From Erpobdella octoculata (Eukaryota > Annelida > Clitellata > Hirudinida > Erpobdellidae): 64,000 bases of DNA. Positions 1,822-42,161 of the stretch are shown one piece after another. The stretch spans positions 28,404,117 to 28,468,116 of the forward strand of contig OZ022238.1 of NCBI GenBank assembly GCA_963978895.1. The letters run 5' to 3'. Made by a program: the position numbers and the translations under genes. Each line of letters begins with the position of its first letter. Within the stretch, counting starts at the first letter, position 1. The notes beneath the pieces were generated by a model that saw only the letters and a program-made list of their open reading frames with translations, ran no database searches and was not told the origin of the DNA.

Positions 1822-1921
1822 TGTATGTATGTATGTATGTATGTATGTATGTATGTATGTATGTATGTATGTATGTATGTATGTATGTATGTATGTATGT
1901 ATGTATGTATGTATGTATGTA
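1793..1921. repeat. (ATGT)n microsatellite
   Basis: About 32 nearly perfect ATGT units. It adjoins the 3' terminus of Helitron X1 (CTAG at 1922) without spacer. Confidence 0.95.
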
Positions 1922-3218
1922 CTAGCAGTGCCCGTAGCGGCTTCGCTCGCATGAAATTACAGAATTTGAACCGTGCAGACATAGTAGACTACTGCACGGA
2001 TCAATTTTTTAGGTCTCGGCTCGGCCCGTCGACAACTTGGCCCTGCCCGTCTCAAAAACCGAAATTCCTAGCCCGGCATGGCCCGTCTAATATGGGCCCG
2101 GCCCGTTTTTACAGGCCTAGAATTTCTATATACTTGATGAAAAACTTCGGCTCGTCCCACTTTATCTTCAGGTTTAGCCCGGCGCGTCTGAACATCTTAA
2201 AATCACTAAAATGTCTATATACATGGTTAAAAATGTCGGCCCGTCCCACCTTGATTTAAGGTTTGGGCAGGGCCGTATGAAGACCCTAAAAAAACGGCTT
2301 GACCCGTCCGTCCGGTGATAAACTGAACTCATCTACTTTTAACCGGCACAAAACCTCAAAATACTAATTTTCACATCTGTAGCACTTACAGTTTTTGAGT
2401 AACAGTTATTTTAAAATCAAATAACCCTTTTCCACTTCACATTTGAGGTCCTGGAAACCAAATTTTCAAAAAATATTGAAACACGTATATCATTATTTTT
2501 AGAGTAGAAACCAAATACTAATTTTTACTCCTGAAGCATCTACAGTTTTCGAGTAGCAGTTACATTAAAACCCAAATAACCTTATTTTCCACCCCACATT
2601 TGAGGTCCTGGAAACCAAATTTTAAAAATTGGTGAAACACGTATATCTTTATTTTTAGAATAGAAACTAAATACTAATTTTTACATCTGTGGTATTTACA
2701 GTTTTTGAGTAGCAGTTACTTTAAAAAACAAATAACCCTATTTTCCACCCTACATTTGAAGTCCTGGAAGCCAAATTTTCAAAAAATGCTAAAACACGTA
2801 TTTCATTATTTTTGGAGTAGAAACTAAATACTAATTTTTACTCCTGTACCAATCACTGTTTTTGAGTAGCAGCTACTTTAAAAACCAAATAACCCAATTT
2901 TCCAACCCACATTTGAGGTCCGGGAAACCGAATTTTCAAAAAATGGTGAAACACGTATCTTTTTATTTTTCAAGAAGAATCCATATACCAAATTTCAAAA
3001 TCTCCTCATTTTTAGTTTTCGAGATATACATTGTTTTAGAAAAACGTTTGTTTTCCAGTTTCTTCCCCTCAGGAGCCAAATTTTCAAAAATCCTTTCTTA
3101 GTGGATGCTTACGCAATAAAAGTAATATAAGTTCCAAATTTCACGTTACTAGGATGAGGCGTTTGAGCTCGGCGTTGATTATCAGTCAGTCAGTCAGGAC
3201 ATGTTCTTTTATATATAT
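1922..3218 (-). mobile_element. Non-autonomous Helitron X, copy 1
   Basis: On the minus strand the element begins in TATATATATAAAAGAACATG plus a GACTGACTGA-type block and ends with a GC-rich hairpin region and CTAG followed by T, the termini expected of Helitrons. On the plus strand the left edge reads CTAGCAGTGCCCGTAGCGG. The interior has no coding capacity. It holds a GC-rich segment with many GGCCCG motifs, then about four tandem units of about 156 bp (GAGTARCAG motif at about 2396, 2553, 2708 and 2864). The leading TC of its 5' end is missing because copy X2 abuts it. The left flank is (ATGT)n. Classification rests on terminal structure; no transposition proteins are present. Confidence 0.75.
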
Positions 3219-3219
3219 A

Positions 3220-4696
3220 CTAGCAGTGCCCGTAGCGGCTTCGCTCGCATGAAATTAGAAAATTTGAACCGTGCATCCATAGGTGTCGGCTCAGTCCGTC
3301 AACAACTTGGCCCAGCCCGTTTCAAAACCAAAATTCCTGGCCCGGCACGGCCCGTCTAATTTGGGCCCGGCCCGTTTTTACAGGCCTAGAAATTCTATAT
3401 ACTTGATGAAAAACTTCGGCCCGTCCCACAAACTTCAGGTTTGGCCCGGCCCGTCTGAAGACCCTAAAATCACTAAAATGTCTATATGCTTAGTGAAAAA
3501 CCTCGGCCCATACCACCTTGATTTAAGGTTTAGCCTGGCCCGTAAGAAGACCCTAAAATAACGGCTTGGCCCGACCGGTGATAAACTGTACTTTTAACCG
3601 GCACAAAACCTCAAAATACTAAGTTTTACATCTGTAATGCTTGCAGTTGTTGAGTAGCAGTTATTTTAAAATCAAATAACCCTTATTTTGACCCCACATT
3701 TGAAGTCATGGAAACCAAAGTTTTAAAAAATGGTGAAAAACTTATATCGTTATTTTTTGAGGCGCTGGTGGCAGAGCGGTAGAGCGTTCGCCTGTCAATC
3801 GTTAGGTCGGCAGTTCAAACCTCGCCGGCGTCACCAGCGTAACTCCCTTAAGCAAGGAGTTCACTCGCATTTGCTTAAGGGCTAGGAGCCTATAAATAGC
3901 TGCCTTTGCAAGTACCCTCCCTCTCTCGCCTTGAGCAAGACTTGTCTTGATAAGGCGTATGCTAAATCTCAATAAAAAAATACTAAATACTAATGTTTTT
4001 ACATCCGTAGCATTCACAGTTTTTGAGTAGCAGCTACTTTAAAAACCAAGTAATGTCCACCCCACATTTAAGGTCCGGAAAACCAAATTTGTAAAAAAAT
4101 GGTAAAACACGTATATCTTTATTTTTAGAATAGAAACTAAATACTAATTTTTACATCTGTGGTATTTACAGTTTTTAAGTACCAGTTACTTTAAATAACA
4201 AATAACCCTATTTTCCACCCTACATTTGAAGTCCTGGAAACTAAATTTTCAAAAAATGCTAAAAACACGTATTTCATTATTTTTGGAGTAGAAACCAAAT
4301 ACTAATTTTTACTATTGTAGCATTCACAGTTTCTGAGTAGCAGCTACTTTAAAAACCAAATAACCCAATTTTCCAACCCACATTTGAGGTCCGGGAAACC
4401 GAATTATCAAAAAATGGTGAAACACGTATCTTTTTATTTTTCAAGAAGAATCCATATACCAAATTTCAAAATCTCCTCATTTTGGATTTCGAGATATACA
4501 TTATTTTAGAAAAAAGTTTGTTTTCCAGTTTCTTCCCCTCAGGAGCAAAATTTTCAAAAATCCTTTCTTAGTGGATGCTTACGCAATAAAAGTAATATAA
4601 GTTCCAAATTTCACATTCCTAGGATGAGGCGTTTGAGCTCGGCGTTGATTATCAGTCAGTCAGTCAGTCAGGACATGTTCTTTTATATATATATAG

Positions 4697-9288: not shown

Positions 9289-9454
9289 ATTTATATATAT
9301 ATAAATGAATGTTTGTATATACGTATATATGTATATATGTATATATATATATATATATATATGTCCTTTATGCATATATATATGTATGTGCGTATGTATG
9401 TGTGTATGTATGTATGTGTATGTGCATGTATGTGTGTCTGTGTTTATGTATGTA
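9289..9454 (+). mobile_element. Helitron Z 5' fragment running into (ATGT)n
   Basis: ATAAATGAATGTTTGTATAT, then a (TA)n, then GTCCTTTATGCAT match the 5' part of the Z copy at 46171-46826. The following TATGTATGTGCGTATGTATG signature also occurs at the start of the microsatellite inside that copy. Helitron X3 is inserted at the end of this array. Confidence 0.6.
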
Positions 9455-10892
9455 CTAGCAGTGCCCGTTGCGGCTTCGCTCGCATGAAATTAGAGAGTTT
9501 GAACCGTGCATCCATAGTAGAGATCAATTTTTTAGGTCTCGGCTCGGCCCGTCGACAACTTAGCCCAGCCCGTTTTAAAAACCCAAACTCCTTGCCCGGC
9601 ACAGCCCGTCTGAATTAGGCCCGGCCCATTCTTACAGGCTTAGAAGTTCTATATACTTGATGAAAAACTTCGTCCCGTCCCACCTTGACTTCAGGTTTGG
9701 CCCGGCCCAACTGAAGACCCTAAAATCACTAAAATATCTATATACTTGGTGAAAAACCTCGGCCCGTTCCACTTTGATTTAAGGTTTGGCCTGACCCGTG
9801 TGAAGACTCTAAAATAACGGCTTGGCCCGGCCGGTGATAAACTGAACTTAGCTACTTTTAACCGGCACAAAACTTCAAAATACTAATTTTTACATTTGTA
9901 GCACTTACAGTTTTTGAGTAGCAGTTATTTTGAAATCAAATAACCCTTTTTTCCACCCCACATTTGATGTCCTGGAAACCAAATTTTTAAAAAAATGTTG
10001 AAACACTTATATCATAATTTTTTGAGTAAATACTAAATACTAATTTTGACATCTGTAGCATTCACAGTTTTTGAGTAGCAGTTACTTTAAAAACCAAAGA
10101 AACTTTTTTCCACCCCACATTTGAGGTCCTGAAAACCAAAATTTCAAAAAATGGTGAAACACATATATCCTTATTTTTAGAGTAGAAACTAAATACTAAT
10201 TTTTACTTTTGTAGCATTAACAGTTTTTGAGTAGAAGCTACTTTAAAAACCAAATAACCCAATTTTCCAACCCACATTTGAGGTCCGGGAAACCAAATTT
10301 GTATAAAATGGTGAAACACGTATATCTTTATTTTTAGAAAAGAAACTAAATAATAATTTTTACATCTGTGGTATTTACTGTTTTTGAGTAGCAGTTACTA
10401 TAAAAGACAATTAGCCTTATTTTCCACCCCACATTTGAAGTCCTGGAAACCAAATTTTCAAAAAATGCTAAAACACGTATTTCATTATTTTTGGAGTAGA
10501 AACTAAATACTAATTTTTACTCCTGTAGCATTAACAGTTTTTGAGTAGAAGCTACTTTAAAAACCAAATAACCCAATTTTCCAACCCACATTTGAGGTCC
10601 GGGAAACCGAATTTTCAAAAAATGGTGAAACACGTATCTTTTTATTTTTCAAAAAGAATCTATATACCAAATTTCAGAAAAAAATTTTAGAAAAAATTTT
10701 TAGAAAAAAGTTTGTTTTCCAGTTTTTTCCCCTCAGGAGCAAAATTTTCAAAAATCCTTTCTTAGCGGATGTTTACGCTATAAAAGTAATATAAGTTCCA
10801 AATTTCACGTTCCTAGGATGAGGCGTTTGAGCTCGGCGTTGATTATGAGTCAGTCATCTGTCAGTCAGGACATGTTCTTTTATATATATAGA
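9455..10892 (-). mobile_element. Non-autonomous Helitron X, copy 3
   Basis: The 3' end is CTAG at 9455-9458 with the GCGGCTTCGC hairpin, and the 5' end is TC (plus-strand GA at 10891-10892) preceded by A on the minus strand. The interior has the GGCCCG-rich segment and several units of about 156 bp marked by GAAACACGTAT and GAGTAGCAG. It is flanked on both sides by (ATGT)n. It is about 140 bp longer than X1, close to one internal unit. Confidence 0.78.
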
Positions 10893-11088
10893 TGTATGTA
10901 TGTATGTATGTATGTATGTATGCATGTATGTATGTATGTATGTATGTATGTATGTATGTATTTATGTATGTATGTATGTATGTATGTATGTATGTATGTA
11001 TGTATGTATGTATGTATGTATGTATGTAGGTATGTATGTATGTATGTTTGTATGTATGTATGTATGTATGTATGTATGTATGTATGTG
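10893..11088. repeat. (ATGT)n microsatellite
   Basis: About 49 units with single-base variants. It separates Helitron X3 from the 3' end of LINE A. Confidence 0.95.
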
Positions 11089-12788
11089 TGCTATATCTCT
11101 TTGCGAGCTTTCGTCGCCGAAGGTCTTCAGAAGAAGAACCTCTCATTTTTAGCGTTTCGGCCCTTAAACTTCTTGACGCTTTTAAGAAAGGTGGGCCCGC
11201 GTCCGTTGATCAGGCGGACGCCCTTCGGCGAGAAAAATTTCCAAATTCCTAACTTGAAACACGAAAATTCAAAGTTCAGCAGAAAACTGTTCGAAACAAA
11301 ACTTGAAATCGCTGGAACGATTATCGCTCAATGTAAACAAGGCTAAACCATTTCATGTGCATCTTGTGGCGCTTTCTTTTTTCTATTAGCGAAAATCCAA
11401 AAAGATGCAGCTTCAGCTGTCTGGGAGATCTCCTTGATGGCTCGAGTTTTTTCTCGGTTTGAAAAACCAAGAGCTTTCAGCAGTTTTAACATTGAGCTGC
11501 TAACCAACCCTCGAACGCCAACCTCGATTGCAAAAATTTCAGTCCTGAATCCTTTGGCATTCAAACCACATGCTAAATCCCTATATCTCTCCTCTTTGAA
11601 AATATTGCTAGATTCCATGTTTCTTTCCCATGGCACAGAGAGCTCAATCAGGAGCATTGTCTTGGCCAAGTCAGAATATATAATTATATCCGGCTTTAAA
11701 CCGCTAGATCTCACAGCTTCTGGAAATTTTCTTTCGCCATCCAAATCAGCCGAAACCGACCAATCGTCGGCAGCACCCATCACACATTCAAAGTCTCATG
11801 TAGATCTGAACCTGTGGAACTTCAGATTGCCTTCTCTCAAAAAGTAGATTTTCCTTTTCTGCTATATTCCTCTTGTTTTTGCTTTCTTACACGCTTCTTT
11901 GACGAAGTCAAGCAATTTTCGGAGTACTTGGTTATGCCGCCAAGTGTACCTCCCGTGTGAAAGTGAAAACGAACAACAAGAAAGAACGTGAATGAGAGTC
12001 TCCGATTGCCCACATAACATGCACGAATCATCGTCTTTCAACTTCCATCTTCGAAGATTGCTGGATGACGGCAGTTGATCATAAACAGATCTAATCAAGA
12101 AAGACAAACGTAGTGGTGTGTATTGCTGAACGCTGAACAGCATTTTTCCATGTCGTCCAATCTCCTTGTTGAGATAACTGAACAAACTTAATCATTCTCT
12201 GGGACTCGATAGCTTTCTTTCTTTCTTTCCTGAATGACCAGACTTGTTCGTTCACTGGTGCTGGCTTTTGACCACCAAATTCGATGGGTCGACCCGAGAC
12301 CCCGTTTGTCCTGTTGAACTGCCCCAACTCTTTCTGTCCAACGTAAAGAGGCTTCAGCTTCTGCGATCTCCTTTCTGGCTACCCATTTCTTTCCGGATTT
12401 TACAAGAGGTCCCATCTCCACAATTCTTTGATCCGAAGAGTTATCCAGCATTAGTTGCGTACGGATCTTGTTTATCTTAAACTCCTCAACCAAAGACTTC
12501 AGTGGCAACCTCAGTTTGGCAGTCTTGCTGTACAAAGCTACCGAAGTAAATCCCGGAGGCAGACCCAACCATTTCCTTGTAAATTTATTCATCCTCCTTT
12601 CTAGCTTTTCCACCAATGGTAAGCTCATCTCATACATTGATAGAGGCCACAGCAATCTCGGTAATAGAACAAACTGAAGCAACCACAATTTGAACCTGCT
12701 CTGGAGTGGGGCCGCATCAATTTTCTTCATATCTTCAAATGCCGATCGGAGAACTTCAGAACACCGTCCAGTGTCGTTAAGCGAATCG
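11089..12788 (-). pseudogene. REL-type LINE copy A, 3' half (thumb, CCHC knuckle, restriction-like endonuclease)
   Basis: On the minus strand this continues the LINE interrupted by the Gypsy element. The part up to about 12190 is still in the chimeric frame (APLQSRFKLWLLQF, RKWLGLPPGFTSVAL). Frameshifts follow. The 12185-11862 segment carries a CCHC knuckle, CMLCGQSETLIHVLSCC, and RYTWRHN. The 11783-11343 segment carries the endonuclease with KPDIIIYSDLAKTMLLIELS, then VPWERN and EERYRDL. The 3' UTR (about 11340-11089) shares CGTTTCGG and GGTCTTCAGAAG-like blocks with copies B and C and ends at (ATGT)n. Confidence 0.85.
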
Positions 12789-15700
12789 TCTCCAATTTTG
12801 TACTTGTGTTGTATTTGGAAAGATTCTTTGTTTGTTCTTTGATTTCGTTTATCCTGCATCTCTCGAACAAGGCAAGGAGGACATGGCAAAAGAGAATCTA
12901 ATTTGCTTCTGATTTGTCGTCCATTCAAGAGTTCACTTGGGGAAAATCCAGATTCCAAGGGCGTTCTCCGATATTGCAAAAGAAAATCTTGCAAAGCTCT
13001 TCGGAGAGGATGTGCAGACTTCGTGAGTGATTTTTTAAAAGTTTGTATCAATCGCTCAGCTGCCCCGTTGGTTGCAGGATGATAAGGAGCTCCAGAAAGA
13101 TGAATGATGCCTCTTTCTTTGCACCAATTCTGAAATTCTTCAGAAGTAAAGGTTGGAGCATTATCAGTCACCAAAGTGTGTGGGAAACCAAAATGTGCGA
13201 AATCTTCATCCAAAAACTGAGTTGTTGTTTTTGCTGTTATGGAACTTGTCGGATGTATACACGGGTATTTCGAATAGGCATCTACTATAACCAGCCAATT
13301 GGTTCCAAAAAAATTTATGGCGTGATCTAGATGCACTCTGTCCCAAGGCTTTTCAGGAATCATCCACGGGTGATTCATCATCTTTGGTGGCTTGTTTTGC
13401 TGTTCAGCACAAGAACTACATGAACGACTTAAATTTTCAATATCGTTGTCAATTCGAGGCCAATAAACTATAGTTCTTGCTAAACGCTTCATTCTTTGCA
13501 TTTCGAAATGTCCTGTATGTAATAATTCTAAAATCTTGCCGCGTAATTTCTTTGGTATCACGATTCTTGCTCCAAAGAGTAGACAACCACTTTCTGTTGA
13601 AAGAGAATCAGAAAGTTTCTCATACAGTTTTAATTCCGGTTGCATGATTCTGTGAGGCCAGCCGTCTCTCACAAATCGTATCACTGTAGAGATAACAGGA
13701 TCTTTACTTGACTCTTTTGATAACAGTCTGGAATCGGACATTTTTTGGCTGATTGTGTTAATAACGCAAACTGTTGAAACATCTGCATCTTCTTCTGTCG
13801 AGTCAAATTCTTCGTCTTCGCACGCTGGTAGGCGACTGAGAGCGTCTGCATTTCCGTGTTCTCCGGTTTTTCGATATTCAATTGAGTAGTTGTACTGGCT
13901 CAATGTCAGGGCCCATCTTGCTAGACGATTTGCTGCCAGGACCGGAGTTCTTTTTGACGGACCAAACAATGCGAGGAGTGGTTTATGATCTGTCACCAGG
14001 ATGAATCTACGCCCGTACAAGAATTGATGAAATTTCTGCAGACCAAAAATGATAGAAAGTGCTTCTTTTTGAATCTGGCTGTAGCGTCGTTGTGTGTCTG
14101 TCAATGTTTTAGACACGTTGTAAAGAGGACGTTCAGAACCATCGTCATATCTGTGGAACAGCACTGCTCCAATTCCTACTTCCGACGCATCGCATGACAT
14201 TCCTAAGGGAGCCGTAGGATCGAAATGAGCTAGACTAACTTCATTCGTAAGAATATCTTTAAGATGTTGGAACACTGCATTTTCCTTGACGCCCCATTGC
14301 CATGGTGTGTTTCTCTTTGTGAGACGAGTTAACGGTTCGGTTAAAGTCGAAAGGTTCTTGATGAACTTTCCGTAGAACTGTACCGATCCCAGAAACGATC
14401 GCAGAAAAGAAACGTTTGTTGGCGGTGGCATCTTCGTCACTGCATCTACATGTTTTCCTTTTTCTATGCCGTTTCTGGTGAGTCGATGTCCCAAGTATTC
14501 CACTGACGGTTGAGCAAAAACGCATTTCCTTTGATTGCACTTTAAACCTCTTTCTTGTAAACGTTGAAGAAGATTCCGTAGGTTTCTCAGATGCTCGTCA
14601 GCTGTGGTTCCACTCACTAGAATGTCATCTAAGTACACCGCTACTCCTGGTAGATCACACGTTAATTTGTCCATTATTTCTTGAAAATAACCTGGAGCTG
14701 AAGTGATGCCAAAAGGTAGACGTGTTTGTAGAAGTACACCTTTGTGCGTGCTCAACGCTAGTCTTCTTTGACTTTCTGGTGCCAGTTTAATCTGGAGGTA
14801 TGCATCTGCGAGATCGATCTTACTGAAGCAAAAGCTTCCTCCTAATTTTCTCATCAGATCTTCTGGAAGTGGCATTGGGTAACGATGTGTTTCAAGTTGA
14901 GAGTTGATCGTTACCGAGTAGTCTCCACAGATTCTTAGTCCTGCCTTTTTCTGATTCGGTTGAATCCGTTTTCTGACTGGAACTACCGGGGTTCCATAAT
15001 GATTGAACTGAGCTGGAATCCATATACCTTTTCTAATTCCTGCATCATAGACACTGTTCAATTCTTCCAGGATAGCAAACGGTACTGTCCGGGGCTTGCA
15101 GAAAATCGGTTCCGAATCTGGTTTGAACTTTATTTCTAGTTCGACATCTTTAAGACATCCCAGTTGTGAATCGAACAATTCGCTGTATTCAGAGCACAAA
15201 AGTTGACATTCATTTTGAAGGTGGTTTTCTGTTGTTTCCGTTATAAGTTGAACGGAACTGAAGTTCTTTGACAGCAATGCGGTGACGTCAATCTTCATAT
15301 CACGTATCGCCTCAAATCCCAGTAGGTTGAGATCATGTGTTTTTGTGACATTGAACCACACTCTTCTTTGGATGTCTGAGTTTTTCAATTTTACTTCTGT
15401 TTCAAATGTGCCCATTGTTGGGATGTCATTTCCCGTTGCTGAACAATATCTTTTATCATTCAGCTGCAACTTCGGTTTCCCCAGTTTGATCCATGCAGCT
15501 CGTGAACAAAAGTTGTCTCTGGAACCACTATCGATGAGAAAACTGAAGGGTTGACTGTTGAGAGTCAACTGTTGCAACAAAGGATTTCGTCCTTTCATGG
15601 TGAACACGTGTTCTTTCACGAATTCATCTTTTGCAAATACACACTGAACTTGTCTTTTCTTTTTTAGACAAACAGCTTGCAGATGTCCTTTCTTTTGACA

Positions 15701-16585
15701 GAAATTGCATATGTAGTTTGCAAAACGACATTCTTTAAAAGTGTGGTTGTTCTTACCGCAACGTCGACACTTTTCTTTAGGAACATTTGGCGTTTTATCA
15801 GTTGCGTGCTGCTGATGATATTCCGTATGTTTCTTCTGCTTTCTTCGATCAACTTTGAATACCTGAGACGTTCTCTCAGGTGATGGGGCTTTTTCGCAAA
15901 CGGTTTCTTTTGCAACTTGAGCTGCATCTTCGGTTTCGCATGCTATCTCTATTGCTCTTGCAAAAGATAACTCATCGTCATTTATGCGGAACAGAGCTCG
16001 GAGGACTGCTTCATTGTTGACGGAACAGATAAATCTGGTCCTCATTGCTTCGTCTTGTGGATTCTCGATAGAAGCAAAATCACAAGTTGTCGCTGCTTGA
16101 CGAATTCTTGCCGCCAACTGGTTGATGGTTTCACCTGGTTCTCGTTTCATTGCGGTCCAGAATTTGTACCTTTCTCGGACGACAAACTTTGATGGGTTAA
16201 ACTGATTTCCCATAAACATTTCGATTTCTTGTATCGTTAAGTCATTCGCTTTCTTTGGCGGTGTTTGCTGACTTGCTAACGTATCAAGAAACTTGTATGT
16301 TGACGAAGTTTGATTAGTCAAGAAAACTTGAGGTATTTTTCGACCAGGAACCGAATGAGCACCAGTGAAAGTTTCAAACCTTGCCCAGTAATCTTTCCAT
16401 AATTCTTTCAAAGGGTCGAAAGCTTCGAAACTGGGAATATTTGTTGCCGATGGTTGTAAACTCAAAATCAACCTCTCCATTTGTTTTATGTGTTCTGCTC
16501 GTTCTTTTTCGCGAAGTCTTTCTTGTTCTGAGCGATATCTCTCTTGCTCAGCGAACAATTTAATTAATTTATCAACTTCAGACAT
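12188..16585 (-). CDS. Gypsy gag-pol fused in frame to REL-LINE C-terminal segment (1465 codons)
   Basis: One uninterrupted frame. It starts with ATG at 16585, 15 bases after the 5' LTR. In order: gag; two CCHC knuckles at about residues 270-310 (CRRCGKNNHTFKEC and CNFCQKKGHLQAVC); aspartic protease with LIDSGS near 350; reverse transcriptase with YLDD near 652; RNase H with CDASEVGIGA and TDHKPLL; integrase with an HHCC region near 1030 and the DDE triad at about 1083, 1140 and 1175 (LDHA, TDNAPTF, NGAAERL). This is the K02A2.6-like Gypsy layout known from many metazoans. At about residue 1266, after KYKIGD, the frame passes without a break into LINE A sequence (SLND onward). The integrase C-terminus is therefore missing. 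The gag-to-integrase core shows no stop or frameshift, suggesting a fairly young insertion. Whether the fusion is expressed is unknown. Confidence 0.9.
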   Translation of the reverse strand: MSEVDKLIKLFAEQERYRSEQERLREKERAEHIKQMERLILSLQPSATNIPSFEAFDPLKELWKDYWARFETFTGAHSVPGRKIPQVFLTNQTSSTYKFLDTLASQQTPPKKANDLTIQEIEMFMGNQFNPSKFVVRERYKFWTAMKREPGETINQLAARIRQAATTCDFASIENPQDEAMRTRFICSVNNEAVLRALFRINDDELSFARAIEIACETEDAAQVAKETVCEKAPSPERTSQVFKVDRRKQKKHTEYHQQHATDKTPNVPKEKCRRCGKNNHTFKECRFANYICNFCQKKGHLQAVCLKKKRQVQCVFAKDEFVKEHVFTMKGRNPLLQQLTLNSQPFSFLIDSGSRDNFCSRAAWIKLGKPKLQLNDKRYCSATGNDIPTMGTFETEVKLKNSDIQRRVWFNVTKTHDLNLLGFEAIRDMKIDVTALLSKNFSSVQLITETTENHLQNECQLLCSEYSELFDSQLGCLKDVELEIKFKPDSEPIFCKPRTVPFAILEELNSVYDAGIRKGIWIPAQFNHYGTPVVPVRKRIQPNQKKAGLRICGDYSVTINSQLETHRYPMPLPEDLMRKLGGSFCFSKIDLADAYLQIKLAPESQRRLALSTHKGVLLQTRLPFGITSAPGYFQEIMDKLTCDLPGVAVYLDDILVSGTTADEHLRNLRNLLQRLQERGLKCNQRKCVFAQPSVEYLGHRLTRNGIEKGKHVDAVTKMPPPTNVSFLRSFLGSVQFYGKFIKNLSTLTEPLTRLTKRNTPWQWGVKENAVFQHLKDILTNEVSLAHFDPTAPLGMSCDASEVGIGAVLFHRYDDGSERPLYNVSKTLTDTQRRYSQIQKEALSIIFGLQKFHQFLYGRRFILVTDHKPLLALFGPSKRTPVLAANRLARWALTLSQYNYSIEYRKTGEHGNADALSRLPACEDEEFDSTEEDADVSTVCVINTISQKMSDSRLLSKESSKDPVISTVIRFVRDGWPHRIMQPELKLYEKLSDSLSTESGCLLFGARIVIPKKLRGKILELLHTGHFEMQRMKRLARTIVYWPRIDNDIENLSRSCSSCAEQQNKPPKMMNHPWMIPEKPWDRVHLDHAINFFGTNWLVIVDAYSKYPCIHPTSSITAKTTTQFLDEDFAHFGFPHTLVTDNAPTFTSEEFQNWCKERGIIHLSGAPYHPATNGAAERLIQTFKKSLTKSAHPLRRALQDFLLQYRRTPLESGFSPSELLNGRQIRSKLDSLLPCPPCLVREMQDKRNQRTNKESFQIQHKYKIGDDSLNDTGRCSEVLRSAFEDMKKIDAAPLQSRFKLWLLQFVLLPRLLWPLSMYEMSLPLVEKLERRMNKFTRKWLGLPPGFTSVALYSKTAKLRLPLKSLVEEFKINKIRTQLMLDNSSDQRIVEMGPLVKSGKKWVARKEIAEAEASLRWTERVGAVQQDKRGLGSTHRIWWSKASTSERTSLVIQERKKESYRVPEND

Positions 16586-16590
16586 GTCGA

Positions 16591-16600
16591 CTGCGCCAAT
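16591..16600 (-). promoter_or_regulatory. Putative primer-binding site start of the Gypsy element
   Basis: Immediately after the 5' LTR the minus strand reads ATTGGCGCAGTCGAC before the ATG. A TGGCGC-type start is usual for a tRNA primer-binding site. The tRNA was not identified. Confidence 0.4.
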
Positions 16601-16771
16601 TGTTGTGTCTTTCAGAAAACTTTATTCTTTCTAAACACAATATAAATAACAAGAAACATGTAATATTAATACCGCGCAACTCGCAAAACACTAAACAGAA
16701 CTTTCTCGCAACAACTCGGTAGCTAGCTAGGAAGGCGCACCTGACTACACCTGGAGTGTCTCGTCACAACA
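16601..16771 (-). repeat. Gypsy 5' LTR (171 bp)
   Basis: On the minus strand it starts TGTTGTGACGAG and ends AAAGACACAACA, giving TGTTGTG/CACAACA terminal inverted repeats. It contains AATAAAG near its 3' end. It is short for a Gypsy LTR. No second copy is found at the other end of the element. Confidence 0.75.
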
Positions 16772-17654
16772 CCACCCTCCCAGGCTCTTAACCAATTCTT
16801 CTCTCAATGTTGGGATCCTGTTGCCAGCAACTGAAAACGTCACGTTGTCGTCGATCTTGCCTCGTCGCAGAGATAAGTTTCTTGACTTGGTTGCCTTGAA
16901 ACTCATGCCGCACCATGATAGCAGCCCGCTGAATGCGTCAAGAGCTCGTCGCATTGAGATACATTTGTTTAGAACCACAGTTGTATCATCCATGAAGGCC
17001 TTCACCGATGGCATCAAGATACCTTTCTCACTTCCGCCAAGTGAGAACCCACTGCATTCAGAAGCAGCTGCATCGCTAATACGAAGAGAATGGGTAAAAT
17101 TGAGCAACCCATTGCTATACCAACTTCTAACTGGAACCATTCTGTTGAACATGAGGACGTTGACAACCTCAATTTGAAATGTCCGAAATACTGTTGCAAC
17201 ATTTCTATCACAAAATTTGGAACATGATGCGATCTGAGAGTTTTCCACAACATTTGGTGACGAACAGCTCCATAAGCATTGGCAAAGTCTAACCAGACAA
17301 TGTGCAAACTGAGACGATTATCTTTACCTCTTTTCAATGCTTCCCAGATCACGACGAATGTTCGATGCATTCTGGTACTCCTGGCACTCCTCCCTTCTGA
17401 ACAGACCTGTCGATGTAATTGTTTTGAATTACATAGCTTGTCAGTCTCCGAGCAAGGACAGCAAAAAATATCTTTCTCTCGACGTTTAACAATGAAATTG
17501 GGCGAAACTGATGTATTACCTTCGAGTCTTTTTTTTTCGGAATAAAAATACCTTCTGCTCTTTGCCATTCGCTTTCAATTCTTCTTCTTTCCCAAGAGCC
17601 CACGAGTAGAGAATGCAATAATCTCAATACTTCTGGGCATTTTTTGTAGACGAG

Positions 17655-17656
<2 letters not shown>
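16772..17656 (-). pseudogene. REL-type LINE copy A, 5' part (reverse transcriptase), 5'-truncated
   Basis: Minus-strand frames from 17655 read [47 protein letters not shown] and AFMDDTTVVLNK, the fingers and palm of the reverse transcriptase, in two frames joined by a shift near 17030-17180. The 5' end is cut exactly at (ATGT)n, upstream of which the zinc finger and N-terminus are missing. It ends at the Gypsy 5' LTR. Confidence 0.85.
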
Positions 17657-17685
<29 letters not shown>

Positions 17686-17710
17686 TGTATGTATGTATGT
17701 ATGTATGTGT
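17657..17710. repeat. (ATGT)n microsatellite between LINE A and LINE B
   Basis: About 13 units. It borders the truncated 5' end of A and the 3' end of B. Confidence 0.95.
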
Positions 17711-18037
17711 GTGTGTTCACTCCTGAAGAGCTTTTCTGTGGAGGTCATCAGAAGAAAACCCCCCCTCGAGCAAACGTTTCGGCTCTTTAATTTCTTGACG
17801 TTCTAAGGGGGGCGAGCCACGTTCGACGGACGAACGTCCTCCGGCAGAAAATGTTTCTGTTCTTTTCCGACATCGAATTTCTATCATTCCTTGCATCGTG
17901 GCAGATATTTGTCATGCAAATAAACTCGCGACTTTAGAGAAATTCAGACTATTCAAGTGAGAAAACCTTCGACGACATAACGGCTTCGCTTTCGTAGCGG
18001 TACTTAATATCGCCACGTAAACAAAGACGAAGCAATT

Positions 18038-21000
18038 CTATTCTTGCGGAGCGGAGAGAGCGGCTTCTAAATTTGGAAAATCTTCTTTTTTCTCTCTTTG
18101 AGACCAAATCCAGAATGAAGCCGATTCTGCTGCTTCAGAAATCTGTTTAATTGCACGGGTCCGCTCTCTGTTAGACATTCCCAGGGCCCGCAGCAACTTT
18201 AGCAAAGATTTACCAACCAAACCGCGTGCTCCGACTTCAACAGCAAAAAGCTCAGCTCTTGAGCCATTTGCTTCCAAATCCAACATCAATTCTCTGTATC
18301 TTTCTAATTTCATGATGTTACTGGCCTCCATGTTGCTTTCCCAAGGCACTGTCAACTCGATGAGAAGAAATGTCTTGGCCAGACTCGAAAAAACAACTAT
18401 GTCTGGCCTTTTTCCACTTTCCTTTATTGAAACTGGGAAGCACTTTTCCGTTTTCAGATCGGCAGAGACCCTCCAGTCGTTCGCCGCATGGAAAACATTC
18501 TCTCCTTCCGTGAGGGTTCTTTTTGGGCGATTTAGCTGCGGCAATCCCTCTCTCAAAAAATAAATCCTCCTCCTAGGTTTCACCTCCATTGAGTTGGCTT
18601 TTCGGCAGGCCTCTTTTACAAATCCCAGCAGCTTTTGGAGAACAAGGTTGTGGCGCCACGTGTATCTACCATGAGAAAGGGAATAGGAGCAGGAGGAAAG
18701 AATATGAATCAATGACTGCGACTGACCGCAGAGCTGACACTCATCGTTCTCAATTAATTTCCATTTCTTTAAATTGCTGGCTGTTGGCAGCTGATCATAC
18801 ATCGATCTAATGAGGAACGATAGCCGCACTGGAGCATAGCGCCATATATCTTCCCATGACAGAGACCGCTGAACTGTCTCCTCCCATCTGGTCCAGTCGC
18901 CTTGCTGTGACAATTGTGCGCTCTTCACAACTCTCTCGCTTTCTATCGCTTGCTTTCTGTCCTGAACAATCAAGTCTGATCTTTCCTGAGCGTTTGCCTT
19001 GGACCACCAGAGATGGTGGTTCCATCCAACACCATGCCGCCCCAACTGAACTGCTCCGGTCCTTTCAGTCCACTGGAGAGAAACCGTGGCATTCTCTATT
19101 TCAACCCTAGCATTCCATTTGGTTCCTGAGATTAGAGTTGGTTTTACCTCAGCGACTCTCTGATCCGTTGAATTATCGAGCATCATCTGAGTTCTCAGTT
19201 TGCTGATCTTGAAATCTTCAACAAAAGACCGCAATGGAAGTCTCAGCTTGGCTGTTTTGCCGTAGAAAGCCACAGACGTCAATCCCGGAGGCAGACCCAA
19301 CCATTGACGTGTAAAACGAGCTATCTTTCTTTCTAGTTTCTCCACAACTTGCAGACCAATTTCATAGACTGTCAAAGGCCAAAGCAGTCTTGGCACTAAA
19401 ACAAATTGCAAAATCCACACTTTGAACCTGCTCTGAAGCGGAGCAGCATTAATGCTTTCCATGGAGACAGTTGCCATACGGAGAATAGAAGCACCCTGAT
19501 CAACGTCATTCAGGGATTTACAATACCATCTCCCGAGACTTTTCACTGGTTCGTCGCTCACTGTTGGAATCTTGTTACCATCAACAGAGAAAACGGTGTA
19601 TTCATCAATTTTACCGCGACGCAGGGAGAGACTTCTCGATTTAGATGCTTTAAAACTCATTCCGCACCATTTGAGTAGATCGCTGAAGACATCAAGTGTC
19701 CGTCTCATTGAAATACACTTATTCAAACTAATTGTCGTGTCGTCCATGAAAGCTCTCAGAGGTGGCATGAAAATACCTCGGCCGACATAAACATCTTCTA
19801 CCCTTGCACCAACTGAATTCAGAAGTAGTTGCATTGCTAGCACGAATAATATGGGAGAAATAGAGCACCCCATGGCTATACCGACCTGAAGACGAAACCA
19901 ATCGGTTGAACACGTCTTTGTCGATAATCTCAGGTGAAAATCTTGAAAATACTGTCGTAGAATATCCATAACGAACTTTGGAACATGGTGCATCGTCAAA
20001 GCTCTCCAAATCAGCTGGTGACGAACCGCTCCATAAGCATTTGCAAGATCAAGCCAAACGACGTGCAAACTGAGTCGATTCTGTTTTGCTCTTTTTATAG
20101 ACTCCCAGATCATGGTAGAATGTTCGATGCAACCAGGAACACCAGGGATTCCTCCTTTCTGAATTGACTTGTCTATGTAGTCGTTTTGTGTTAGATAGCT
20201 CGTCAACCTCTTGGCAAGCACAGCAAAAAATATTTTTCCTTCAACATTGAGAAGAGAAATTGGTCTGAACTGATTGATGTCGACTGAAACTTTCTCCTTT
20301 GGTATAAAAATGCCTTCAGCTTTTTGCCACTCTTTATCAACAGACCCGGAAGTCCAAGCAAACTTGAGCAATGAGTGTAAAACTTTCAACACACCCGGAC
20401 ATTTTTTATACACCAGGTATGGTACACCATTTGGGCCTGGAGCAGATCTATTTCTTGTTTTTCGGAGGAATTGGGATATGTCAAAAATTGAAATTACTCC
20501 CTCGTTGAAAGCAACCTTTGGAAGAGGAATCTCGGGAAGATCTGATCTTTCAGCTAGTTCTTTGTCGCCCAAGGGGTCAATGAAAGCAGCTCGGAAGTGA
20601 TGATCAAGCTGCTCTTTACTGACTTGCAGAGTACCTGACTTTGGTGGATCGAGCAAGCTTTTACCATAACGGAATGGATCTCTGACAAACTGGAATCTTG
20701 CCTTCCTTTGTTCTCTTTTCTTTACCCGCAAACGTTCTGCTCGCAAGAGTGCACTCAATCGCTGCCTCAAGTCATGTCGTAATGCTGAGAGCCCTGGTTT
20801 CTCGTTGTCTGGAGCTCTCCTCCATTGTTGACGAAGTCGTTTTTTTTCCTTTTTGAGTCTAGCAATCTCTCGTTGTCGCCTTGAAATATGAGTTTTTTCG
20901 CCTCTGTCCATGAGAACTTTTTCCTTGGAACCGAACATCTCTAAACACTTGTTGTAAATGGTGTCAGTTAGATTGTTCACTTGAAACATTGGAAGTTCTT

Positions 21001-21523
21001 TCATCTGCACTTTGAGAAGCTTGGAAAGTATCTCGTCGAGCTTCGACCAATCCGCTTTGTGAGCAGCAGCGGGGAAGTTAATTCTAGCCCGAGGTTGCCT
21101 ATTCTCGTCGCTATCAGGATCGTGGAACCTGTCGGGGCTGTGGTTGGCATCCGGCCCGACTTGGCCCGGCGTTTTACCTGAAGCAATGCTTGCTTCAGTA
21201 CGATGATCCTGTACAGCTTTAAGCAGGCAACCCATTTTCGTACGGTGAACCTTCATACCGCGGCTTGTTGCAAAACCTCTACCGCACACACACTCATGAA
21301 GTGTTCCCCCATTAGGGTCCGTTGGAAGAGCAAGTTCGATGGCCGAAGGTCCTATTGTGAGCTCATCATACTCCCCCTCCTTTCGGTTGGAGCTCTGGGG
21401 GCATAAATTCGATTTCGTTGTCGCAGCTAGATGAACGGTGTTTTTTGTATCCCGGCTAAGCTGGGCCAGGATACCCGTAATACTCGTCTTTCCGAGTTGC
21501 CACCTGTCTTTCCACGGTGTCAC
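18038..21523 (-). CDS. REL-LINE copy B polyprotein: zinc finger, reverse transcriptase, restriction-like endonuclease
   Basis: An intact frame of 1161 codons. A CCHC-type zinc finger lies at about residues 78-100 (CVCGRGF ... HRTKMGC), probably for DNA binding. A basic stretch (about 200-270) precedes the RT, with INQFRPISLLNVEGK, VVWLDLANAYGAVRHQ, GIAMGCSISPILF and the catalytic FMDD near 593. The thumb region carries RQWLGLPPGLTSVA. A CCHC knuckle, CQLCGQSQSLIHILSSC, is near 928. The endonuclease near 1038 has RPDIVVFSSLAKTFLLIEL and VPWESNMEAS, a PD-(D/E)XK arrangement. The frame begins at GTG in the 5' repeats and has no ATG before the zinc finger. True initiation is unknown, as in several R2-like elements. 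Known REL LINEs nick a defined target and prime reverse transcription there. Confidence 0.9.
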   Translation of the reverse strand: MTPWKDRWQLGKTSITGILAQLSRDTKNTVHLAATTKSNLCPQSSNRKEGEYDELTIGPSAIELALPTDPNGGTLHECVCGRGFATSRGMKVHRTKMGCLLKAVQDHRTEASIASGKTPGQVGPDANHSPDRFHDPDSDENRQPRARINFPAAAHKADWSKLDEILSKLLKVQMKELPMFQVNNLTDTIYNKCLEMFGSKEKVLMDRGEKTHISRRQREIARLKKEKKRLRQQWRRAPDNEKPGLSALRHDLRQRLSALLRAERLRVKKREQRKARFQFVRDPFRYGKSLLDPPKSGTLQVSKEQLDHHFRAAFIDPLGDKELAERSDLPEIPLPKVAFNEGVISIFDISQFLRKTRNRSAPGPNGVPYLVYKKCPGVLKVLHSLLKFAWTSGSVDKEWQKAEGIFIPKEKVSVDINQFRPISLLNVEGKIFFAVLAKRLTSYLTQNDYIDKSIQKGGIPGVPGCIEHSTMIWESIKRAKQNRLSLHVVWLDLANAYGAVRHQLIWRALTMHHVPKFVMDILRQYFQDFHLRLSTKTCSTDWFRLQVGIAMGCSISPILFVLAMQLLLNSVGARVEDVYVGRGIFMPPLRAFMDDTTISLNKCISMRRTLDVFSDLLKWCGMSFKASKSRSLSLRRGKIDEYTVFSVDGNKIPTVSDEPVKSLGRWYCKSLNDVDQGASILRMATVSMESINAAPLQSRFKVWILQFVLVPRLLWPLTVYEIGLQVVEKLERKIARFTRQWLGLPPGLTSVAFYGKTAKLRLPLRSFVEDFKISKLRTQMMLDNSTDQRVAEVKPTLISGTKWNARVEIENATVSLQWTERTGAVQLGRHGVGWNHHLWWSKANAQERSDLIVQDRKQAIESERVVKSAQLSQQGDWTRWEETVQRSLSWEDIWRYAPVRLSFLIRSMYDQLPTASNLKKWKLIENDECQLCGQSQSLIHILSSCSYSLSHGRYTWRHNLVLQKLLGFVKEACRKANSMEVKPRRRIYFLREGLPQLNRPKRTLTEGENVFHAANDWRVSADLKTEKCFPVSIKESGKRPDIVVFSSLAKTFLLIELTVPWESNMEASNIMKLERYRELMLDLEANGSRAELFAVEVGARGLVGKSLLKLLRALGMSNRERTRAIKQISEAAESASFWIWSQREKKEDFPNLEAALSAPQE

Positions 21524-21600
21524 CGGTCTTTCCCAGTTGCCACAAGGTCTTTCCCGAGAGTCACCCGGTCTTTCCCGGGGGTCAAATGGCTAACGCCTCA
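21487..21600 (-). repeat. Imperfect 20-27 bp tandem repeats in the 5' region of LINE B
   Basis: About five units of the type GGTCTTTCCCRGTTGCCAC, some alternating with GTCACCC. They overlap the presumed 5' UTR and first codons of LINE B and are not present in the 5'-truncated copies A and C. Confidence 0.7.
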
Positions 21601-21620
21601 AAAATGTGTGTTCACTCCTG

Positions 21621-21668
21621 AATGTATGTATGTATGTATGTATGTATGTATGTATGTATGTATGTATG
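21621..21668. repeat. (ATGT)n microsatellite between LINE B and LINE C
   Basis: About 12 perfect units between the 5' end of B and the 3' end of C. Confidence 0.95.
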
Positions 21669-24600
21669 TGAAAACTCTTCTTCGAGCAAGTTCGTCAGAG
21701 GAAGACCCTCCCAGCGTTTCGGCTCTTTTCCTGACGCTACCACGGGAGGGCGGGCCACGACCGTTGATGAGACGGCCGCCCCCTGACGAAATTTGTGTAT
21801 CACATGCCGTTTCCGACCAGAACCAGATAACCGGCGAATCTTCAAAGTACCAGAACCAAGAAGTCATTTTGAAACCGTCAAGCAACTGTAACAAGATGAG
21901 AAACTGTGTTTCAAACGACGGAACCTGAGCATGTAGTAACTGTAGTATCCACCAAACCGCCAGATTCTAAGACCAAAAGAAACATTCACCTCCGGAACTT
22001 CGAGCCATGCCACCACTTTCACCAAACGAGAAACACCACAAACCATAATGGCAGGAAACATTGTTTCGATTATTTTCAACCGAAACTTTCGCCGGCAGCC
22101 ATAACGCGACTTCGTCCCTGAACTTGTAAACAAAAGAGGAGCTAACACTGTTGTGCGGAAGCCAGAAGTTGCTGTTTAAATTTATTATCTCCTTTTTCAT
22201 TCCTTTGCATCCATATCCAAAAAGAAGCTGTTTCTGCTCTTTCAGCTATTTTCTTGATAGCTTGAGTTTTTTTCCGACCCAACATTCCGAGAGCCACAAG
22301 CGATTTGACGAGTGAGCGACCGGCTAAACCCCTGGCACCTACTTCAACTGGAAAAATCTCGACTCTATACCCCGCACGCTCCAAATCTTGGGCATGGATT
22401 CTGTAATGTTCTTCTTTCAAGATATTTGAGGCTTCCATGTTGCTTTCCCATGGCACTGTTAGTTCGATGAACAGCAACGTATTGGCCAAACTGGAAAAAA
22501 TGACAATGTCCGTTCTCAATCCGCTGCTGCGAACCAATTCCGGAAAGCAGTTTTCATCTTTTAAGTCTGCTGATATCCTCCAGTCATTTGCCACATCAAG
22601 AAACGATTCTCTTCTCGTACTTGCTTTTCTGCGGCCCAAGTGCTGCAAGCCTTCTCTCAAGAAATAAACTTTTCTTCTGGGGCACAACTGCATCGAATTG
22701 GCTAGTCTGCAGTTTTCCTTGATAATGCCCAGTATCTTTCTTAGAACCTCATTGTGGCGCCACGTGTATCTTCCCTTTGCCAAAGCATACGGACAACATG
22801 AGAGAATATGAATCAGAGTTTCTGTTTTCTCAGACAGCTTGCAGGCTTCATTTTCAAGCTTTCCCCACTTCACTAAGTTTGAAGCTGTCGGCAGTTGATC
22901 ATACATCGCTTTAATCACGAAAGATAGGCGGATGGGCGAGTAACGCCACAGATAATTCCATGTCATCGAATGTTGAACTGTCGCCTCCCATCTAGTCCAA
23001 TCGTCCTGTTGCGACATCTGAGCACCTAACTGCACTCTTTCCAACTCCATTGCTCGCCTTCTGTCTTGAATAATCAGGTTTGTCCTTTCCTGCGACGAGG
23101 CCTTAGCCACCACACATGATGGAACCAACCCAGATCGAGCCGTCCCGGTTGCACTGCTCCGAGCTTTTCAAACCATTGCAAAGATTCCTCGGCTTCACGG
23201 ATGTCCCTCCCTGCAGTCCAGCCTTTTCCCGACCCAACTGATGCGCCCACATTCCCGATACATTGGTCTGAAGAGTTGTCCAGCATCAACTGTGTCCGTA
23301 TCTTGCTAATCTTGTACTCTTCTACTAGGGACTTGAATGGAAGAGCTAACTTAGCTGTCTTACTATATAGAGCTAAAGTTAATAACGCCGGTGGAAGTCC
23401 TAGCCATTTCCGAATACACCAGCTCATTTTCTTTTCCATTCACTCCACGTGAGATAAACATATCTCATAAATTGTTAATGGCCATAGGAACCTCGGTATC
23501 AAAACAAACTGTACCAGCCATACCTTGAACTTTCCCTGCAGCTCGGTTGAATTGATTTTCCTCAGGTCCTCAACCAAGCCCTGCAGAACGATGCTGCTCT
23601 GATTCACATCATTCATGGAGACGTTGTACCATCTTCCCAAGCTTTTCAGAGGCTCTTGCTGGATTGTTAGGATTTCCCAACCAGCCACCGAGAATGAGAC
23701 AAAACCATCAATCTCTCCATGTCGCAAAGAAAGGCTTCTCGATTTGGTTGGCTTGAACTTCATTCCACACCAGGACAACAAGTCGTTGAAATTTTGAAGA
23801 ATACGGCGCATTTCGCCGCAGTGATTCAAGATAAGAGTAGTGTCGTCCATGAAGGCTTTTATCGATGGCATGAAAATTTCTTTTCCCTGGTAAACATCCT
23901 GAACCCGAGATGCAATCGAACCGAGCAATAACTGCATAGCCAGAACAAATAGGATGGGAGAAATTGAACACCCCATAGCAATTCCGACCCGCAAGTTGAA
24001 CCACTCTGTGGAGCACGTCGATGTTGACAGACGTAGCCTAAAACGGCGAAAATACTGTTGCAGAACATCGATGAGGAATTCTGGAACATTGTGCCTTTTG
24101 AGTGTCTTCCAGAGCAATTGATGGCGAACAGTCCCGTACGCATTTGCTAAATCAAGCCAGACCACATGCAGGCTGAGTTGGTTTTGTCTTGCTCTTTTGA
24201 TGGCCTCCCAAATCATGGATGAGTGCTCGATACATCCCGGTACTCCGGGGACTCCTCCTTTCTGCACGGATCTGTCAATGTACTCATTACGAATTGCAAA
24301 ATCCGTGAGCCTTTTGGCCAGAACAGCGAAAAATATTTTTCCCTCCACGTTCGAAAGTGAGATTGGTCGGAATTGGTTGATATTGACCGAATCTTCTTCT
24401 TTGGGGATGAAAACTCCCTCCGCCTTCTGCCATTCCCTATCTACGCATCTAGATCGCCATGCAATTTTTAAACGGTTGTAGAGCAGCTTTTGCACGCCTG
24501 GACATCTCTTGTATAACAAATATGGAATGCCGTTGGGACCTGGGGCAGATTTGTTCCTCGTTTTTTTAGAAACCGAGATACTTCATTCATCTTTATCTCT

Positions 24601-25472
24601 CCACCGTCGAAAGCCACTTTCGGCAACTGTACTTTGGGAAAATCGGTTCTTTCCGGCAGCTCTGAATCGCCAAGAGGATCTTTGAACGCCAAACGGAAGT
24701 GATCATCTAATTCTTGTTTTGTCGCTCGAAGAGTGCCAGATTTTGGTGGATCCAGCAAACTTTTCCCGAAGCAAAATGGATTTTCCATGAATTTGCATCT
24801 GGCTTTCTTTTGCTCACTTTTCTTTTTCCGGAGTCTTTCTGCAGCCCTGAGAGCCCGGAGCCGATTGTTTACATCCCGCCACAGTTCAGACAGACCAACT
24901 TTTTCGACCCCCTCTGCGATTCTCCATTGCCGCCTGAGTTTCTTTCGCTCCTTCTTTAATATTTCAATTTCTCTCTGCCGTCTGGATACTGCTGCATGCG
25001 TGTGAACCGGGTTTTTCTGGACCACACCAAATGAATCAAAAGATTTTTTGTAGATAATTTCTGAGAAGGTTTTCATATCGAGTTGTGGCTTCTCCCTCAA
25101 CTGGGCTTTGAGTAATCTCGTCAACTCCAAGTCTAATGTTGACCAAGCTGAAGTGTCAATTGCTTTCGGAAATTTAATTCTTGTCTTGGGTTCTGAATTT
25201 ACATCTGCTTCTGAATCGGAGACTTTGTCGGGGCTGTGGTTAGCTTCCGGCCCGGCGTAGTCAGACGTGTTACCTGCCTCCCTGGTTGAAGCAGAGCGTT
25301 GATTGATAGCAGTGTGACAACCCATTTTAGTTTTATGAACATTCATTCCGCGAATTGACCTAAATCTTCTTCCACAAACACATTCAATTCCTCCGTCGAA
25401 AGCAATCTGTGGAATATGGATGGGTTCTGGAACATCTTGAGCCGACGAATCTGAGCCCGCACTGAGAGATAA
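21669..25472 (-). pseudogene. REL-type LINE copy C (decayed, slightly 5'-truncated)
   Basis: Frames on the minus strand: 25346-24468 (zinc finger CVCGRRF ... HKTKMGCH, basic region); 24519-23440 (RT with INQFRPISLSNVEGK, GIAMGCSISPILF and FMDD near 23850); 23439-23074 (thumb); 23128-22142 (endonuclease with FIELTVPWESNMEAS). A frameshift at a T run near 24565, an in-frame TGA at 23440 and another shift near 23105 break it. The knuckle has lost a cysteine (ACKLSEK in place of C-x2-C), and RPD is RTD. The 3' UTR at about 22141-21669 has the family CGTTTCGGCTC block. The 5' end stops at (ATGT)n just before the zinc finger. Confidence 0.87.
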
Positions 25473-25632
25473 TGTATGTATGTATGTATGTATGTATGTA
25501 TGTATGTGTGTGTGTGTATGTATGTATGTATGTATGTATGTATGTATGTATGTATGTATGTATGTATGTATGTATGTATGTATGTGTGTGTTTGTGTGTG
25601 TTTGTGTGTGTGTGTTTGTGTGTGTGTGTGAT
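25473..25632. repeat. (ATGT)n / (GTTT,GT)n compound microsatellite
   Basis: About 25 ATGT units with GTGTGTGT interruptions, turning into TTTGTGTGTG repeats at the right. It is the right-hand end of the chain of LINE copies. Confidence 0.95.
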
Positions 25633-25656
25633 CATTTGTGAGTCTGCCTTTCTGTG

Positions 25657-25659
<3 letters not shown>

Positions 25660-25711
<52 letters not shown>

Positions 25712-25718
25712 ATTTATG

Positions 25719-25769
<51 letters not shown>

Positions 25770-25784
25770 GTATATATATTTATG

Positions 25785-25861
<77 letters not shown>
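25660..25861. repeat. (TA)n microsatellite
   Basis: Long TA array with TATTTATGTA interruptions that repeat with a period of about 65 bases. Confidence 0.95.
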
Positions 25862-25865
<4 letters not shown>

Positions 25866-26012
25866 ACGATATCACCAAAATGTATACCGTGCTCAATAGA
25901 ATGGTTTTGCAGTTTATAGGAAAATTAATTAATGAAGCATAATAAATCCTATTAATCTCTATCAATGGGAAACTGATCGTAAAATGATCTATTTTACATG
26001 ATTACCCCCTTC
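25862..26012 (-). repeat. LTR-like repeat, copy 1
   Basis: The plus strand begins TGTTACGATATCACC and continues with GCTCAATAGAATGGTTTTGC, shared with 63404-63600. On the minus strand it is preceded by AAGAAGGGGG, a plausible polypurine tract, and ends CGATATCGTAACA, as expected of a 3' LTR. The LTR start is not exactly placed. Confidence 0.55.
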
Positions 26013-41925: not shown

Positions 41926-42161
41926 TTTATGTATGTATACATGTATGCGTGTATTATGCATGTATGTATGAACGTATGTATTTATATGTATGTATGTATT
42001 ATGTATGTATGTATGTATGTATGTATGTATGTATGTATGTATGTATGTATGTATGTATGTATGTATGTATGTATGTATGTATGTATGTATGTATGTATGT
42101 ATGTATGTATGTATGTATGTATGTATGTATGTATGTATGTATGTATGTATGTATGTATGTA
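41926..42161. repeat. (ATGT)n microsatellite
   Basis: About 40 perfect units from about 42001, preceded by imperfect ATGTATGC/ATGTATTT units. It borders the 3' end of Helitron X4. Confidence 0.95.

Follow-up and report, generated by a model that had tools for sequence, protein, structure and literature searches.

Nearly all full-length 5′ ends in two of three LINE families in the leech Erpobdella octoculata, and the few seen in the third, adjoin the 3′ end of another unit, not the (ATGT)n microsatellite that is the target common to all three. Both the common target and this head-to-tail joint go beyond the original prediction. We consider it likely, from sequence comparison, that these LINEs with a restriction-like endonuclease (REL) open (ATGT)n and prime reverse transcription there, and that their template is continuous over the unit boundary, which would give head-to-tail inserts. 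The window, i.e. the whole stretch of DNA that was analysed, comprises 64,000 nt of contig OZ022238.1.

Three elements had been placed between (ATGT)n tracts in the window, and their arrangement and the array coordinates (10892–11087, 17656–17716, 21622–21669 and from 25472) proved correct. The first array, (ATGT)49, is the 3′ flank of element A (11088–17655), which is 5′-truncated inside the reverse transcriptase (RT), and is also the right flank of an unrelated repeat, X. The second lies between the 5′ end of A and the 3′ end of element B, and its final bases are GT-rich and common to the end of B. Element B (17709–21604) is a full unit with an open frame of 1183 codons (18041–21589) and is followed by a 17-nt piece of the 3′ end of an upstream B unit (21605–21621), the shortest form of the joint. 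(ATGT)12 separates this piece from element C (21670–25471), which is 5′-truncated with a broken frame and is flanked at its 5′ end by (ATGT)n with GT-rich parts (25472–25632). The arrays are given for the plus strand; A, B and C, together with the 17-nt piece, are all on the minus strand. The common orientation had been predicted correctly, but the three elements are not diverged copies of one another. DNA identity among them is 65–71% in pairwise comparison within the window, yet each closely matches a different database protein: B is 99.4% identical to P0001, C is 94–95% identical to P0003, and A is 93–97% identical to P0002 in five segments and 76% identical in one 45-residue segment. We therefore treat them as separate families, which excludes the tandem segmental duplication that had been considered unlikely as their origin.

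The span of A had been taken as a single LINE copy. This holds for about 2.6 kb, but about 4 kb belongs to a Ty3-like element inserted at ~12791–16762, whose pol frame (12188–16621) is continuous with the frame of A at one end. Long terminal repeats of this element were not found in a short word search. The 5′ UTR of B (window 21480–21580) contains five GGGAAAGACC-like motifs spaced 20–21 nt, and apparent translated traces of such a motif were seen at the N-termini of the related proteins P0013, P0026, P0039 and P0040.

At the 3′ boundary, A, B and C share the register ATGT|G. At the 5′ boundary, B and C again agree in register, and A is shifted. Every 5′ truncation had been thought to lie at the repeat; this was correct outside B, in which the 17 nt of its own 3′ end precede the array. 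A target-site duplication was considered for these 17 nt and rejected, as the piece is part of the 3′-terminal hairpin in all three families and recurs genome-wide in the joint. ATGT-type arrays occupy 2.5% of the window outside the locus, and three independent insertions would fall there by chance with p ~1.6e-5. In a rough comparison based on ORF ends and not element ends, four other transposon ORF groups were 2.9–10.2 kb from the nearest ATGT-type array. The ORF end of a fifth group, the Ty3-like frame, was 0.9 kb from such an array because it is located inside A.

Two further features of the window were noted. Units of repeat X (1921–3218, 3219–4694, 9454–10891 and 42161–43756) begin with ACTAGCAGTGCCCG and end with TTTTATATATATAG, and contain ~157-bp tandem repeats as well as 89-bp repeats in most units. 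Two units abut directly; in the window, X too has its outer ends at ATGT-type repeats, and the right array of unit X3 is the 3′ array of A. A Helitron with Helitron_like_N and PIF1 helicase domains (56868–61532) is located away from ATGT arrays.

RVT_1 and zf-RVT were the only Pfam families found in the B protein at E <= 0.001. Residues C951, C954, H962 and C967, as well as P1062, D1063, E1078 and K1094, were invariant across 69 aligned sequences, and we take them to be the CCHC and PD..E..K endonuclease motifs. As predicted, B is a REL-type LINE, with RT, a C-terminal CCHC and PD..E..K endonuclease part and no N-terminal AP endonuclease. Its AlphaFold model (mean pLDDT 81.4, pTM 0.78) has an R2-like fold; the best PDB matches were R2 proteins (zebra finch, a turtle and silkworm), for which the TM-score was 0.46–0.58 of the query and the rmsd large. 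We conclude that A, B and C each represent a family of R2-like LINEs whose restriction-like endonuclease is C-terminal.

Named relatives of the B protein, at ~35–45% identity, came from lancelets (Branchiostoma), several fishes and molluscs, a distribution that fits the HERO clade as described. These families insert into a microsatellite, a property of some HERO members that by itself is no proof of membership. Insertion into 28S rDNA, the hallmark of R2, was not seen, the flanks being ATGT arrays or the families' own units. A protease domain is mentioned for NeSL and the related Utopia in the available text of PMC4640811; none was found in B with Pfam at E <= 0.001, and not every NeSL or Utopia member need carry one. 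Relatives of the element DNA gave no match in three scans of viral contigs. A 28% match in prokaryote genomes (L001) presumably represents contamination and was not used. In none of 236 proteins was a truncated element joined to a translated microsatellite, a result that is uninformative because the ORFs need a start codon.

The 3′ UTRs of the three families share a predicted fold (17710–17850 in B, 11088–11237 in A and 21669–21800 in C, minus strand) consisting of a closing stem, inner helices and a 3′-terminal CTC..GAG hairpin. RNAalifold yielded a consensus of 27 pairs from the three sequences, and in 7 of these pairs both partners had changed; this consensus is without the hairpin, which the alignment used breaks in C. 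The hairpin strings are present near the 3′ end in A, B and C, and folding predicted the hairpin itself for A and C. In the string-based pairing check, one helix strand of B was placed at the wrong occurrence. Fold energies compared with shuffles gave z values of −3.70 (A), −3.02 (C) and −0.71 (B). The B 3′ UTR takes the shared shape as centroid only; at minimum energy it folds differently, and that fold does not outperform shuffles.

Insertion into (ATGT)n had been predicted from the window, and flanks were tabulated over a sample of the window's own 386 Mb assembly (94 contigs). The 3′ UTR queries were used without the array, and the scored places were the best 40 of 469 candidates for C, the best 40 of 814 for A and the best 40 of 402 for B. 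As only the best candidates were scored, the B places are biased to young copies, and 39 of these 40 were identical to the query over 306 bp. The flank sample consisted of 70 loci (30 A, 30 C and 10 B), including the window's own three; the 10 B loci came from a query containing the array. With 3′ termini that differed from the search strings left out, and any contexts identical over 210 nt merged, a script identified 54 distinct 3′ contexts in the 70 loci. Long (ATGT)n made up 44 of these, short arrays 3 and same-family 5′ ends 6; a single context, L051, was none of these. The predicted target was thus present in 47 of the 54.

Truncated 5′ ends were tallied without alignments below 85% identity and without ends <=80 bp from a locus edge. 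An array was found by script within 40 bp of 23 of the 37 ends, including L029, L050 and L051, in which it is near the end without touching it. The other 14 comprise several internal rearrangements or nested elements, one N, and two that are unexplained (L020 and L057). Every element of the multi-element or multi-family loci was in one orientation, including several families within one array (e.g. L029, L036 and L039). Perfect arrays of at least 8 units preceded by a non-T base numbered 2,740 in 386 Mb, so that arrays make up a small part of the genome; a reversed-repeat control for this count (2,705) was meaningless, as reversing the repeat yields an array of the same type. From these flanks, insertion of the A, B and C families into (ATGT)n is well supported. 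One A-family insertion (L044) lies in a short ATGT run beside a sequence that by eye resembles a tRNA.

A piece of B 3′ end precedes the 5′ end of B not only in the window (17 nt) but also elsewhere in the genome. The exact B 5′ end occurred 99 times and the exact joint 62 times (controls, 0 in each case). The search for the joint demanded an exact match, and inspection of the flanks of all 37 5′ ends without it revealed 34 variant joints, which belong beside the 62, two arrays (L179 and L180) and one other sequence (L177). In total, 96 of 99 B 5′ ends had a further B unit's 3′ end immediately upstream, with a nearly constant joint. At L179 and L180 (ACAT)n lies directly at the 5′ end; as the joint itself ends in ACAT, these two are indistinguishable from truncation a few bases inside the joint. 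All 68 matches to the C 5′ end were preceded by the 3′ end of its own unit, 62 of them letter-identical and 6 with one change; the pattern required 12 free bases and a non-G before the 5′ end, and flanks with G at −13 would have been missed. Among the sampled loci, four of five near-complete C 5′ ends were joints, and the fifth (L015) begins at unit position 22 on an array. All four A-family full 5′ ends recognised by script were joints, three of them from one tandem run, and a fifth read by eye (L049) had the same joint. Rfam contained no ribozyme match to the window at the gathering threshold, and matches to E 1 in 10500–26000 were microRNA models on arrays, with no known ribozyme near the joint.

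The length of the upstream B piece ranged from ~17 nt to whole units. Forty of the 62 exact B joints were fetched with ~500 nt upstream; the other 22 were the window's own, L036, nine with another exact joint one unit upstream, eight beside a 3′ UTR match and three others. The upstream piece ended after 44–409 nt in 14 of the 40, each time at an ATGT/ACAT-type repeat; one ran into N, and 25 reached the fetch edge, with pieces of at least 515 nt. At L036 a piece of ~290 nt is followed by an array. A shorter fetch was used for the 37 5′ ends without an exact joint, in which 13 upstream pieces ended, 12 of them at more or less regular ATGT/ACAT-type sequence as read by eye; at L170 the piece ends at non-array sequence. 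Three B joints (L163, L183 and L189) have a 5′ flank repeat in the opposite orientation. Tandem units were spaced 3894–3896 bp for B (8 loci), 4222–4231 bp for C (4 loci, the longest run having four joints) and 3788–3789 bp for A (3 loci, one of them with four 3′ ends in a row).

The most likely explanation for this pattern is that the enzyme opens an (ATGT)n array, presumably by nicking the repeat, and that the ATGT strand would then prime reverse transcription from the 3′ end of the RNA, as in R2. Priming on this strand fits the constant orientation and the 3′ register in the window. The cDNA would stop at varied points and be joined to the (ACAT)n side; the ends themselves are seen as sequence, and the mechanism is what we infer. 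Copying would also continue past the 5′ end of a unit, through a fixed joint, into a further unit's 3′ end; B and C provide the sequence evidence for this step, and the outcome would be partial, double or longer head-to-tail insertions. The template would be circular RNA or else multimeric RNA produced by read-through of tandem copies, two sources that leave DNA of the same kind. A continuous template is favoured by the scarcity of clean 5′ ends, many of which are predicted by simple linear copying, and by the uniformity of the joint, which jumping with non-templated bases would vary. Judged from the insertions, it is as if truncation treated the unit boundary like any other position. As a narrower and tentative proposal, these LINEs may replicate via circular RNA (or an obligatory multimer), with microsatellite-primed copying around the circle and inserts lacking a true 5′ end.

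Template jumping is somewhat unlikely. Here the enzyme would run to the 5′ end of a linear unit-length RNA and then jump to another RNA molecule at its 3′ end. The R2 reverse transcriptase moves between RNA ends in vitro according to the available portions of PMC12203849 and PMC8857657, and defined RNA ends could give uniform joints. Non-templated nucleotides are reported to be needed for the jump, and these should make the joint variable, yet 62 B joints (beside the 34 variants) and 62 C joints were letter-identical. Run-off ends were also nearly absent (2/99 for B, both ambiguous, and 0/68 for C).

Short upstream pieces, such as the 17 nt of B in the window and those of 44–409 nt elsewhere, would also be left if each RNA started in the tail of its neighbour. 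HeT-A has such a promoter in the 3′ part of its upstream neighbour. A fixed start predicts a single upstream length, however, and the lengths are spread, with 25 of 40 at least 515 nt and others whole units, making this arrangement improbable. Growth of tandem arrays at each locus by unequal crossing-over or duplication after single insertions could account for loci at which four units or joints follow one another. We consider it highly improbable, as the exact joint occurs at 53 separate loci for B and 62 for C, and many joints have partial upstream pieces ending at the array. Least probable of all is that (ATGT)n is merely a tail that belongs to the element and arises in reverse transcription: the array does follow nearly all 3′ ends seen, but it is not confined to the 3′ side as the tail reading demands, since truncated 5′ ends mostly abut (ACAT)n, and some arrays contain several families in one orientation.

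The usual view of LINEs is that a linear unit-length RNA is copied and that copying stops at its 5′ end. At least B and C, and by few cases A, behave as though there were no such end. A different life cycle for R2-like elements would follow if the template is indeed circular or multimeric. The three families are also a clean example of several families with one common microsatellite target.

Among known systems, R2 resembles B in fold, domain order and RT similarity, and has a structured 3′ UTR, as do the A, B and C families; it differs in its target, 28S rDNA as opposed to ATGT repeats. A full copy of Penelope is often preceded by a partial one. Tandem copies of Penelope-like elements are described in the available text of PMC11722881, as are retrozymes, which pass through circular RNA and occur as single and tandem units of varied number. 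The tandem copies of both resemble those found here, but their RT and endonuclease are different or absent, and hammerhead ribozymes occur in these systems, whereas no Rfam ribozyme match was obtained here. Microsatellite targets are reportedly the subject of a paper by Kojima and Fujiwara (2004). According to the portions of the literature available, some HERO families target microsatellites (PMC4640811), and members of the HERO clade have been recorded in sea urchin, lancelet and fish (PMC9004415). HERO thus shares the REL type, the microsatellite target in some families, and the presence of B relatives in lancelet and fishes; the (ATGT)n target and the near-obligatory head-to-tail joint of the A, B and C families did not appear in the portions of those descriptions available (PMC4640811, PMC9004415). 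Togen, a (TG)n-specific fish element in the accessible part of PMC4640811, is likewise a REL-type element in a microsatellite. Its target is a dinucleotide as opposed to ATGT, and that part of the description gives no account of Togen joints. The same source in part mentions one Utopia family that is occasionally tandem in U2 genes (PMC4640811), whereas here the joint is present at nearly every full 5′ end in B and C. Microsatellite-targeting REL-type LINEs were thus already known, and to our knowledge, based on a limited literature search, the near-obligatory joint is new.
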